From positions 1-46,919 of the forward strand of contig JAJTHZ010000134.1 of the NCBI GenBank assembly GCA_021299185.1: DNA of 46,919 bases, written 5' to 3'. Source of the stretch: Lysobacteraceae bacterium. GTDB taxonomy: Bacteria > Pseudomonadota > Gammaproteobacteria > Xanthomonadales > Ahniellaceae. Shown here one piece after another: positions 3,338 to 41,727 of the stretch. The notes under the pieces are model-generated. The model made no database searches, was not told the origin of the DNA, and saw only the letters and a list, made by a program, of their open reading frames with translations. The position numbers and the translations under genes were made by a program. Numbering within the stretch: position 1 is the first letter of the stretch; every line of letters begins with the position of its first letter.

Positions 3338-3710
3338 GTAGGAGCGCGCTTGCGCGCGACCGCCACCTTGCACGTGCGGCAGGACCGCGATGGCGCGGTC
3401 GCCCGCAAGCGGGCTCCTACGACAGCGCGCGATGGGCCGCGCTGCGTCCACCCGTAGGAGCGCGCTTGCGCGCGACCGCCACCTCACACGTGCGGCAGGA
3501 TCGCGATGGTGCGGTTGCCCGCGAGCGGGCTCCTACGACTGCGCGCGATGGGCGGCGCTGCGCCCACCCGTAGGAGCGCGCTTGCGCGCGACCGTCACCT
3601 CGCACGCCGCGGCAGGTCCCGAATGCTGCGGTCGCCCGCAAGCGGGCTCGTACGACAGCGCACCATCCACGCGACGGCGCTCTTGTAGGAGCGCTGCGTG
3701 CAGCGCGACC
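3338..3710. repeat. Class-A REP (BIME-like) tandem array, 3 units plus one half unit
   Basis: This gene-free stretch holds three tandem units that begin with GTAGGAGCGCGCTTGCGCG at 3338, 3454 and 3570, an exact 116-bp period. Each unit is a head hairpin followed, after a linker, by an inverted tail ending in CAAGCGGGCTCCTAC (one tail reads CTCGTAC). A fourth, divergent head (GTAGGAGCGCTGCGTGCAG) starts at 3684 and runs up to the stop codon of the tetR gene. The linkers are near-identical within this array and differ from those of other arrays in the window. Confidence 0.9.
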
Positions 3711-9874: not shown

Positions 9875-10062
9875 GGATCCCTGCGCGCCACGGCTCATGC
9901 GCCGTCGCTGCGTGTCTCGCCAGGGCCGCGGAGCTTCGGTCGTGGCACCGGCTTTGGCGGCAGGAAACACGGCGCAAACGGGGCTATCGGCGGCATGCCG
10001 CGGCGCTCGAACCGGCAGTGCCAGCGCCACCGCCTGCCCGAGCCGTGCGCCGGACGCGAGTT

Positions 10063-10090
10063 GGGCCCTGGGCCCTGGGCCCCGGGCCCT
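10063..10090. repeat. GGGCCCT short tandem repeat
   Basis: Four imperfect copies of GGGCCCT lie just beyond the rpoH terminator. The same short unit makes up the two blocks at 17136-17171 and 17283-17335, so it is a dispersed GC-rich intergenic repeat type. The remainder of 9875-10062 shows nothing recognisable, although it must hold the promoter of the beta-helix gene. Confidence 0.65.
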
Positions 10091-10091
10091 G

Positions 10092-17135: not shown

Positions 17136-17335
17136 AGGGTATAGGGCCCAGGGTACAGGGCCCAGGGCCCAGCCGAAGGTTTGGAAGTCCCCGCGAATCC
17201 ACCGCCGACTGGCACCACCGCCTGATGGCTGGCACCGGCCACGCCGCGCATCATCCGTGCGGTTCGTTCCAGACCCGCGCCCCATACCCTGGGCCCTGGG
17301 CCCAGGGCCCTGGGCCCTCAGCCCTCAGCCCTCAC
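17136..17335. repeat. Two GGGCCC-rich blocks in inverted orientation
   Basis: Between the convergent stops of the receptor and QEGLA genes lie a left block (17136-17171, units of GGGCCCAGGGTACAGGG type) and a right block (17283-17335, units of CCCTGGGCCC type). The two are largely complementary, with about 110 bp of unremarkable sequence between them. Transcripts from either side could fold into a long stem. They are related to the short repeat at 10063-10090. Confidence 0.65.
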
Positions 17336-17344
17336 CCCAACCGC

Positions 17345-23886: not shown

Positions 23887-23962
23887 GTGGGAGCCGGTTC
23901 CACCGGCGACCGCCCTGCGGCGAGCCTTCATCAGGCCGATCGCCGGTGGAACCGGCTCCCAC
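23887..23962. repeat. Class-B repeat: perfect 23-bp inverted repeat
   Basis: The arms 23887-23909 and 23940-23962 are exact reverse complements beginning GTGGGAGCCGGTTCC. They enclose 30 bases. The element follows the SGNH gene by about 35 bp and may act as a transcript end. A related single arm (GTGGGAGCCGGCTCCGCC) lies near 29692, and a diverged one (GTGGGAGCGGCGCGTGCGCC) at about 24005. Confidence 0.8.
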
Positions 23963-24091
23963 CCAACCCGAATCTTCGAATCGCCGTGGCAAGGCCCAGG
24001 CCTTGTGGGAGCGGCGCGTGCGCCGCGATGGCGCGATGTCCGGGCGACGCGACGCCGTGGCATCGACACCGGCCCCCGATACACTCCCGCC

Positions 24092-29617: not shown

Positions 29618-29691
29618 GGATCGGGCGCGCCGACTGCAGTCGCTGCTGAAGCAGCTCCCACAGCAGGCTCGCGGCGCGACGCGGCACCTGT

Positions 29692-29715
29692 GTGGGAGCC
29701 GGCTCCGCCGGCGAC
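29692..29715. repeat. Class-B repeat, single arm
   Basis: GTGGGAGCCGGCTCCGCCGG and the following bases match the arm of the inverted repeat at 23887-23962 with few differences. It sits in the gap between the convergent lipoprotein and AMP nucleosidase genes, 26 bp from the latter's stop. The gap also contains AGCTCCCACAGC near 29652, a decayed opposite arm. Confidence 0.55.
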
Positions 29716-29740
29716 TGCGGCAGCCGCCGCGCCGGCGGGG

Positions 29741-37507: not shown

Positions 37508-37737
37508 GACAGGCAGGCGCGCGCTGGCGCGCGACCGCTGCATCACGCTGCCTGCCGCAAGCCTCATCGCCGCGATCGCCCGCCAGCGGGCTCCTACATG
37601 CACCGAAGAATGTAGGAGCGCGCTTGCGCGCGACCGCTGCATCACGGTACTTGCCGCAAGCCTCATCGCCGCGGTCGCCCGCAAGCGGGCTCCTGCACGC
37701 ACCGAAGGAGTGTAGGAGCGCGCTTGCGCGCGACCGC
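37508..37737. repeat. Class-A REP units left of the RAYT gene
   Basis: Two tandem units of about 104 bp plus a closing head (GTAGGAGCGCGCTTGCGCG at 37612 and 37712). The first head is degenerate. Positions 37639-37737 match 38410-38508, on the other side of the RAYT gene, at 95 of 99 positions, linker included. No gene is seen in 37738-37842. Confidence 0.88.
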
Positions 37738-37842
37738 TCCCGGCACCCCGCGTCGATGAACGCCCGCGTGTCGGCCGATTCGTACGCGACGACGCGGAGG
37801 TCCGCCATCGCCGCCAGTCGTCCGCGCAAGCACGATCACCGC

Positions 37843-38346
37843 ATGGAATCGCACCCGACGCCATGCCCGCCCGGACACCGCGCACTTCGCGGCGGGCGGT
37901 TCAGCACGCCCGGCCAGGCCTACCTGGTCACGACCACAACCCGCCTCCGCAGGCCGTGGTTTGCCGACTGGGACTGTGCTCGCACCGCCTGCGCCACCCT
38001 CCACCACGAAGCGCAGTTCGCGGGCGTGACGTTGTTGGCCTGGGTGTTGATGCCGGACCACTGGCACGCGCTGCTGTCGCTGGATGGCTCGCGCACGCTG
38101 TCGCAGGCCGTGAACCGACTCAAGTCGACCAGCGCGATCGCCGTGAACGCCGCTGTCGGTCGACGCGGCCCGGTCTGGGCGCGAGCATTCCACGACCGCG
38201 CCCTGAGAGCGGACGAGGATGCGCTCGCGACCGCCCGCTACATCGTCGCCAACCCGGTGCGCGCGGGCTTGTGCGCGCATGTGGGCGAGTACCCGTTCTG
38301 GAACACCCGATGGATCGACGCCGATCCGGCGTCCCTGCATCCCTGA
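37843..38346 (+). CDS. rayT: REP-associated tyrosine transposase (RAYT)
   Basis: A 167-residue Y1-type transposase of the IS200/IS605-related RAYT family. The HUH-type metal-binding motif is H73-W74-H75 in MPDHWHALL. The catalytic Tyr133 lies in ARYIVANPVRAGL, the diagnostic C-terminal segment. The N-terminal RGGRFSTPGQAYLVTTTT also fits RAYTs. RAYT proteins cut and join single-stranded REP hairpins. REP units with matching linkers lie on both sides. The ATG at 37843 (MESHP) is preferred; an in-frame ATG at 37756 is possible. The reading frame is intact, so the protein may still be active. Confidence 0.9.
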   Translation: MESHPTPCPPGHRALRGGRFSTPGQAYLVTTTTRLRRPWFADWDCARTACATLHHEAQFAGVTLLAWVLMPDHWHALLSLDGSRTLSQAVNRLKSTSAIAVNAAVGRRGPVWARAFHDRALRADEDALATARYIVANPVRAGLCAHVGEYPFWNTRWIDADPASLHP

Positions 38347-38380
38347 GACGGTCGCGAAGCGGCACCTACCCAGGCTTCGC

Positions 38381-38508
38381 AGGCTGGAGCGCGCTGACGC
38401 GCGACCGAGGCATCACGCTGCTTGCCGCAAGCCTCATCGCCGCGGTCGCCCGCAAGCGGGCTCCTACATGCACCGAAGGAGTGTAGGAGCGCGCTTGCGC
38501 GCGACCGC
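38381..38508. repeat. Class-A REP units right of the RAYT gene
   Basis: One degenerate head near 38383 (GGAGCGCGCTGACGCG), one inverted tail CAAGCGGGCTCCTAC, and a complete head at 38482. The 99 bp at 38410-38508 repeat the left flank of the RAYT gene in the same orientation with four mismatches. The following 38509-38595 contains nothing recognisable. Confidence 0.88.
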
Positions 38509-38595
38509 GCCATCGCGGTGCTTGCCTCGAAGTCCACCGCCGCTGGCCTGGCCGCCGCGGCCTCGGCACCCGCGAAGGGATCGCGTGATGCCGGA

Positions 38596-41441: not shown

Positions 41442-41727
41442 TCAGCCGAGTGAACTCGGCTCTACGCGGAGGCCGCGCCCTGGCCTGGTGTTGTAGAGCG
41501 GAGTTCACTCCGCTGCTCTTCGCCGTTGCGCTCCGGGCGGGATTCCTCAGCCGAGTAAACTCGGCTCTACGCGAACGCCGCGCTTCGGCCGGCGGTTGTA
41601 GAGCGGAGTTCACTCCGCTGCTCTTCGACGTTGCGCTCCGGGGGGGATTCCTCAGCCGAGTGAACTCGGCTCTACGCGGGGGCCGCGCCCTGGCCTGGTG
41701 TTGTAGAGCGGAGTTCACTCCGCTGCG
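41442..41727. repeat. Class-C tandem repeat array, 3 units of 105 bp
   Basis: Three units start at 41442, 41547 and 41652, an exact 105-bp period. Each carries two self-complementary hairpins, CAGCCGAGTGAACTCGGCTC (second copy with TAAAC) and AGAGCGGAGTTCACTCCGCT, joined by CTAC and GTAG edges like those of class-A REPs. The third unit ends at CCGCTGCG. The array fills the gap between the sensor gene start and the thioesterase stop; 41370-41441 has no other feature apart from whatever promoter drives the sensor. Confidence 0.9.

Follow-up and report, generated by a model that had tools for sequence, protein, structure and literature searches.

An intact RAYT gene between matched units of a REP array in a draft Lysobacteraceae genome: an ordinary REPtron

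The window, that is, the whole stretch of DNA analysed (46,919 nucleotides), is contig C24 of the draft genome of a Lysobacteraceae bacterium (4.84 Mb in 270 contigs). It carries a gene, rayT, which judging by its sequence is an intact RAYT (TnpA-REP) and by family a HUH/Y1 single-strand nuclease. RAYT genes are a well-known kind of domesticated transposase gene. The product of rayT matched the Pfam family Y1_Tnp (3.1e-10), the NCBIfam model REP_Tyr_transpos (NF047646; 132.3 bits, cut-off 80) and the solved TnpA-REP structure PDB 4er8 (1e-5), while its score with the IS200 transposase model NF033573 was below the cut-off (25.6 bits, cut-off 55). The residues H73, H75 and Y133 were invariant in all 45 aligned RAYT loci.

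The gene is surrounded by REPs of one class, class A (Table 1). The REP+ sequence is GTAGGAGCGCGCTTGCGCGCGACCGC and REP- is the reverse complement of GTAGGAGCCCGCTTGCGGGCGACCGC; at this locus up to 4 mismatches were allowed. The original prediction of an intact rayT with REPs on either side was borne out, with five REPs upstream and three downstream; the start it gave, 37508, falls 5 nt ahead of the first REP. The 99-bp direct match that it described across the gene, linker included, was found as well, 95 of 99 positions being identical between 37639-37737 and 38410-38508. A repeat search of the window returned a family of 126 nt in three copies (37516-37641, 37615-37740 and 38386-38511), and the upstream flank matched the downstream flank by BLAST over 165 columns at 88%. 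Thus, the "99-bp direct repeat" is one period of an array, REP+ L1 REP- L2, where L1 and L2 are the two linkers. Two such periods are located upstream (period 99) and one downstream. The three units beside rayT had gapped identities of 90.5%, 92.1% and 92.1%, and in this alignment the distance of the downstream unit from the upstream ones does not exceed that between the latter two, as expected in one array. The closest intact pair of REPs flanking the gene is inverted, and a degenerate direct REP+ at 38383 precedes the downstream intact one. Single REP strands had no unusual folding stability for their composition (200 shuffles each; 33 and 16 shuffles were as good for two intact REPs and 11 for the degenerate one). 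For the 85-nt upstream REPIN none of 200 shuffles was as stable, and the effect was less marked for the downstream REPIN (2 of 200).

Table 1. Features of the rayT locus, numbered by position in the window
Feature	Position	Strand	Remarks
rayT, REP-associated tyrosine transposase, 167 aa	37843..38346	+	HUH motif H73/H75, Y133
Probable degenerate REP- right behind the rayT stop codon	38349..38369	-	gapped alignment to REP-
Upstream array, five class-A REPs (+ - + - +)	37513..37737	+	L1 spacers 33 nt, L2 spacers 14-15 nt
Upstream copy of the 99-nt match (L1, REP-, L2, REP+)	37639..37737	+	95/99 to 38410-38508
Downstream array (degenerate REP+, L1, REP-, L2, REP+)	38383..38508	+	
Downstream copy of the 99-nt match	38410..38508	+	95/99 to 37639-37737
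Class-A REP	37513-37538	+	
Class-A REP	37572-37597	-	
Class-A REP	37612-37637	+	
Class-A REP	37671-37696	-	
Class-A REP	37712-37737	+	last upstream of rayT
Class-A REP, degenerate	38383-38408	+	4 mismatches; downstream of rayT
Class-A REP	38442-38467	-	
Class-A REP	38483-38508	+	

The sequence directly 3' of the rayT stop codon, CGGTCGCGAAGCGGCACCTAC, aligns to REP- with gaps, and its score was reached by 1 of 2000 shuffles and, among 1235 background slices taken from the window, by 2. If this REP- is real, the array stays in phase across rayT. The order of elements is then probably REP+ L1 REP- L2 REP+ L1 REP- L2 REP+ (rayT) REP- spacer REP+ L1 REP- L2 REP+, and the gene probably occupies the spacer slot of one array unit, a placement that rests on degenerate REP copies. 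The short spacer between the degenerate REP- and the REP+ at 38383 was not recognisably L2 (222 of 500 shuffles were as good), and no relic of L1 was found beside rayT (105 and 261 of 500 shuffles aligned equally well). It was also considered that L1 might be the remnant of an internal deletion of a rayT element, as known for MITEs and insertion sequences, which was unsupported (against the 105 nt past the last upstream REP, 105 of 500 shuffles were as good).

Three other RAYT genes were identified in the genome, on contigs C112, C35 and C219, with 55, 51 and 46% identity to rayT, respectively; no second copy of rayT was found in the genome, the best paralogue being the one with 55% identity. 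Class-A REPs were absent from the 2.2-3.0 kb examined at each of these loci, which carry GTGG-tagged REPs, distinct at each. Among the four RAYTs found in the genome, only rayT at 37843-38346 has adjoining class-A REPs. A pairing of each tnpA-REP with its own REP family has been described in PMC6006769. The genes on C112 and C35 are open through to the terminal stop. The paralogue on C219 (L012, 1501-1953, minus strand) has an in-frame stop in the middle of the gene with REPs still around it, and this locus is probably a decaying REPtron.

Class-A REPs are found at 408 sites of the genome with up to 2 mismatches, as compared to none for the reversed-pattern control. Linkers were surveyed at 54 loci with class-A REPs from among these sites (the window, L045-L061 and L105-L140), counting only those with a G-type REP at one end and a C-type REP at the other (97 L1 and 93 L2), with same-type and same-strand pairs excluded. 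Comparison of all pairs within and between 44 arrays, the two sides of rayT being treated as one array, gave a median L1 identity of 87.1% within arrays against 58.8% between them (88 and 4568 pairs, 41 arrays), and a median L2 identity of 86.2% against 46.2% (76 and 4202 pairs, 42 arrays). Shuffled linkers gave 48.6% (L1) and 41.7% (L2), a baseline taken from a count with random between-array pairs in which the rayT sides stood as two arrays. L1 retains some likeness between arrays and is 30-33 nt long in 95 of 97 cases, whereas L2 varies by array in both sequence and length (12 to 125 nt). The best match of a linker, ties excluded, was located inside its own array for 59 of 87 L1 and 57 of 81 L2. 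Since linkers are alike within arrays and unlike between them, matched linkers are expected for units of one array. Two arrays have unusually long repeat units of about 190-210 nt; their L2-type spacers measure 124 nt in L117 (contig C52) and 104 and 125 nt in L119 (contig C78).

The idea that each array has linkers found nowhere else does not hold strictly. With thresholds of at least 80% for L1 and at least 75% for L2, 14 of the 44 arrays had both linkers in common with another array, and 30, the rayT array included, shared no pair. Six of the 14 are pairs at contig ends (C13/C241, C125/C22 and C120/C121), which are probably adjacent in the genome and represent one array each; contigs end inside class-A arrays with matching linkers at L046 and L048, L126 and L127, and L055 and L110. 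For the other eight, the array with the same two linkers lies at a distant place, which shows that such sharing is detectable. One group consists of C6:4264-4516 (L106), C50:5144-5511 (L050), C5:16391-16533 (L105) and C53:58-418 (L056), and two further pairs are C6:13093-13474 (L049) with C249:6736-6868 (L134) and C18:14239-14370 (L058) with C118:11976-12185 (L125). The array at C6:4264 resembles a mosaic of two linker families. Distant sharing may have come about through whole units that spread, through arrays recombining with each other or through misassembly; two of the eight arrays sit near contig ends, and errors of a draft assembly at repeat arrays may bear on linker sharing either way. 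As far as the sequences indicate, linkers may travel occasionally in this genome.

A site lacking rayT was searched for with the RAYT protein in 61 genomes (own included) and in 398 genomes of the order, with the STAS neighbour in 21 genomes and a contig collection, and with the MoCoBD neighbour in 10 genomes of the family. No relative of the same genus was present among the 60 relatives. The SpoIIE/STAS pair downstream of rayT has distant relatives at four loci (L141-L144, among them L143 of Vulcaniibacterium tengchongense and L144 of Pseudoxanthomonas kalamensis), and no RAYT was found in the 16-20 kb around them. The MoCoBD gene upstream of rayT has relatives in G001 (62%) and G002 (47%), and neither a RAYT nor a class-A REP was found in the 13-15 kb around these (L201, L202). 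Each of the six loci has relatives of one neighbour only, and none is close enough to provide an empty site; therefore, no base-exact empty site was found among them.

The flanks of RAYT genes were compared, by the true position of each gene, at 45 loci, which comprise the four loci of this genome, the best-scoring 16 of 29 new loci from the first search of relatives and all 25 new loci from the search of the order (L170-L194); the set stops short of weaker matches and of matches for which no DNA was returned, and at 6 of the 45 loci one side was shorter than 1400 nt. A direct match between the two flanks of at least 80 nt and at least 80% was present at 11 of the 45 RAYT loci of the order, including the rayT locus and its C219 paralogue, and an inverted match was present at 5. 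Mismatched pairs of flanks from these loci gave 1 direct and 21 inverted matches in 1980, and a smaller control of 250 mismatched pairs gave 0 and 3. The direct flank match at the rayT locus is beyond chance. For three of the loci with a direct match, all in other genomes, the flank block was compared with the whole genome of its owner. In G213, it was found at 97% and 94% at the RAYT locus, and the next full-length copy had 75%, with pieces of about 90 nt elsewhere at up to 91%. In G351, the values were 91% at the RAYT locus and 76% for the next match near full length, with pieces of about 85 nt elsewhere at up to 90%; in G004, copies of 90%, 85% and 84% were found at the RAYT locus and the others had at most 82% over the full length. 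The lists for these genomes also contained pieces of 25-45 nt with higher identity, which are the REPs themselves. As the best copies of the block lie at its own locus in all three, the pattern recurs, less sharply in G004. Inverted rather than direct matches were seen in L018 (G033; 162 nt at 90%) and L016 (G010; 251 nt at 75%). No fixed rule of REP orientation emerged across RAYT loci, as the 28 loci with REP calls on each side of the gene comprised 18 inverted and 10 direct ones, by a crude detector that misses degenerate REPs; 17 of 45 loci had no REP call on one or both sides. In a limited search of the literature, no statement was found on the frequency of long direct matches between the flanks of RAYT genes.

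The most plausible reading of the rayT flanks is a single local BIME/REPIN array that rayT interrupts. With a probability of roughly 0.78, we consider the locus to be a REPtron, in which a single RAYT of this form sits amid its cognate class-A REPs, arranged as a local tandem array, acts in trans and leaves the REPINs to be amplified locally, the two flanks being units of one array. In such a mechanism RAYT would act in trans on single-stranded REP hairpins, probably by cleavage, and would spread REPINs, each made of two REPs in inverted orientation around a spacer of about 31 nt, to other sites, where a REPIN together with local flank would then be amplified in tandem. Amplification of this kind would leave each array with its own linkers, and the repeats on the two sides of rayT would match through their common membership of one array. 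The near-constant L1 and the array-specific L2 fit a REPIN (REP+ L1 REP-) that first spreads and is then copied in tandem on the spot, along with the flank of the site. The original prediction went further, suggesting that rayT with its matched flanks could be the element that moves or that seeds new arrays. A mobile composite unit of this kind, excising and inserting as one element with flanks that seed new arrays, would agree with a gene bracketed by direct repeats that contain REPs, with neighbours that are not conserved together (no RAYT lies near the STAS relatives, L141-L144, or the MoCoBD relatives, L201 and L202) and with the distant arrays that share both linkers, by which arrays or units could spread with their linkers. 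We regard it as highly improbable, however, because the closest other copy of the gene is only 55% identical, the L1 of the rayT locus was found at three places genome-wide with up to 3 mismatches, all of them at this locus, and matched linkers are typical of arrays that contain no transposase. That linkers differ in the other class-A arrays, as the original prediction states, is correct for the rayT locus, where the best match to any other surveyed array was 68.6% for L1 and 56.2% for L2, yet it is equally true of most surveyed arrays (30 of 44). As the rayT array shares no linker pair and its L1 occurs only here, there is no sign that the block has moved to or from elsewhere; linker spread seems to occur in this genome (8 of 44 arrays), but was not seen from the rayT locus. 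The label REPtron, a published term, is right for this intact RAYT with cognate REPs on both sides, whereas a role of the locus as a moving or array-seeding element was not supported.

Within the reading of the locus as a REPtron in one local array, two orders of events come into question. The array may have built up with rayT already in place, and copies of its units may have crossed the gene through gene conversion, unequal exchange or the action of RAYT on its own flanks. We give this order about an even chance, considering the matched flanks at RAYT loci (11 of 45 direct, 5 of 45 inverted) and the clustering of REPs near RAYT genes described in PMC2817692; insertion into an array would agree with these data too, however, and inverted matches occurred also in the mismatched control (21 of 1980). 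Alternatively, rayT, possibly with one REP, may have been inserted at a REP and split an older array, which would agree with units across the gene being as alike as the tandem units upstream and, given a genuine degenerate REP-, with an array that keeps its phase past the gene. This seems to be the less likely order, as no relic of L1 was found beside the gene (105 of 500 and 261 of 500 shuffles were as good), the order being judged from one allele. A more speculative and rather improbable extension is that RAYT prefers its own locus, so that the gene tends to become bracketed by long matched direct repeats, as at 11 of 45 loci, which would make it prone to loss or duplication through recombination. 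This would act as a switch by which the transposase is lost while the REPs stay, and array units with both linkers would in parallel travel without the transposase gene (8 of 44 arrays).

The locus is an ordinary REPtron, and its matched flanks are typical of the arrays of this genome and do not indicate movement of the gene as a unit. It resembles the REPtron or RAYT (TnpA-REP) loci of Stenotrophomonas, Pseudomonas and E. coli in its HUH/Y1 protein, GTAG-tagged REPs on both sides, abundant cognate REPs and one gene per REP class, and differs from them only in detail, namely in the REP sequence, the 99-nt period and the near-identical flank units on both sides. According to PMC2817692, RAYT genes are always flanked by two inverted REPs, and the flanks lie in BIMEs in a third of cases; at rayT the nearest intact pair is inverted, as is the degenerate REP- behind the stop codon, but a degenerate direct REP+ comes before the downstream intact one. 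The same source describes BIMEs that take in the 3' end of a rayt gene. The rayT gene is similarly located physically within a BIME, although the units of this array are built of REPs and spacers with no evident fragment of rayT (by eye; the spacers were aligned only to the immediate flanks of rayT). In Pseudomonas fluorescens SBW25, tandem clusters of near-identical REPINs with flanking sequence have been reported, one beside each RAYT (PMC3116915), and near-identical tandem units that take in non-REP flank thus lie next to a RAYT in both cases. At the rayT locus the units are present on both sides of the gene. IS200/IS605 elements also have a Y1 transposase bracketed by hairpins, but rayT has no near-identical second copy, the three other RAYTs being 46-55% identical and accompanied by other REPs. 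A further source (PMC8266576) states that there is no evidence for the mobility of tnpA-REP genes and that the mechanism of REP/BIME spread remains to be elucidated. The present locus adds, from a sparsely represented family, a REPtron in which one RAYT is cleanly paired with one REP class. Where matched linkers occur next to a RAYT, they are not readable as a trace of transposition unless the remaining arrays of the genome are taken into the comparison. If it is true that RAYT itself makes direct matched flanks, these would offer a handle on the spread of REPs and BIMEs.

Other repeats are also present. A tandem array of another palindromic repeat, with arms GAGTGAACTCGGCTC / GAGCGGAGTTCACTCC unlike class-A REPs, is located in the window at 41442-41726 (period 105, 2.7 copies). 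Runs of short tandem repeats, 7, 14 or 21 nt long and with units like TGGGCCC or CCCTGGG, were found at 10062-10091, 17136-17167 and 17287-17338 of the window and at 1251-1375 of L119, and a similar run lies within an L2-type spacer of another array. Further palindromes tagged with GTAG or GTGG and unlike class A, at 3685, 23887-24030 and 29640-29720 of the window, are possibly REPs of other RAYTs or of further classes.
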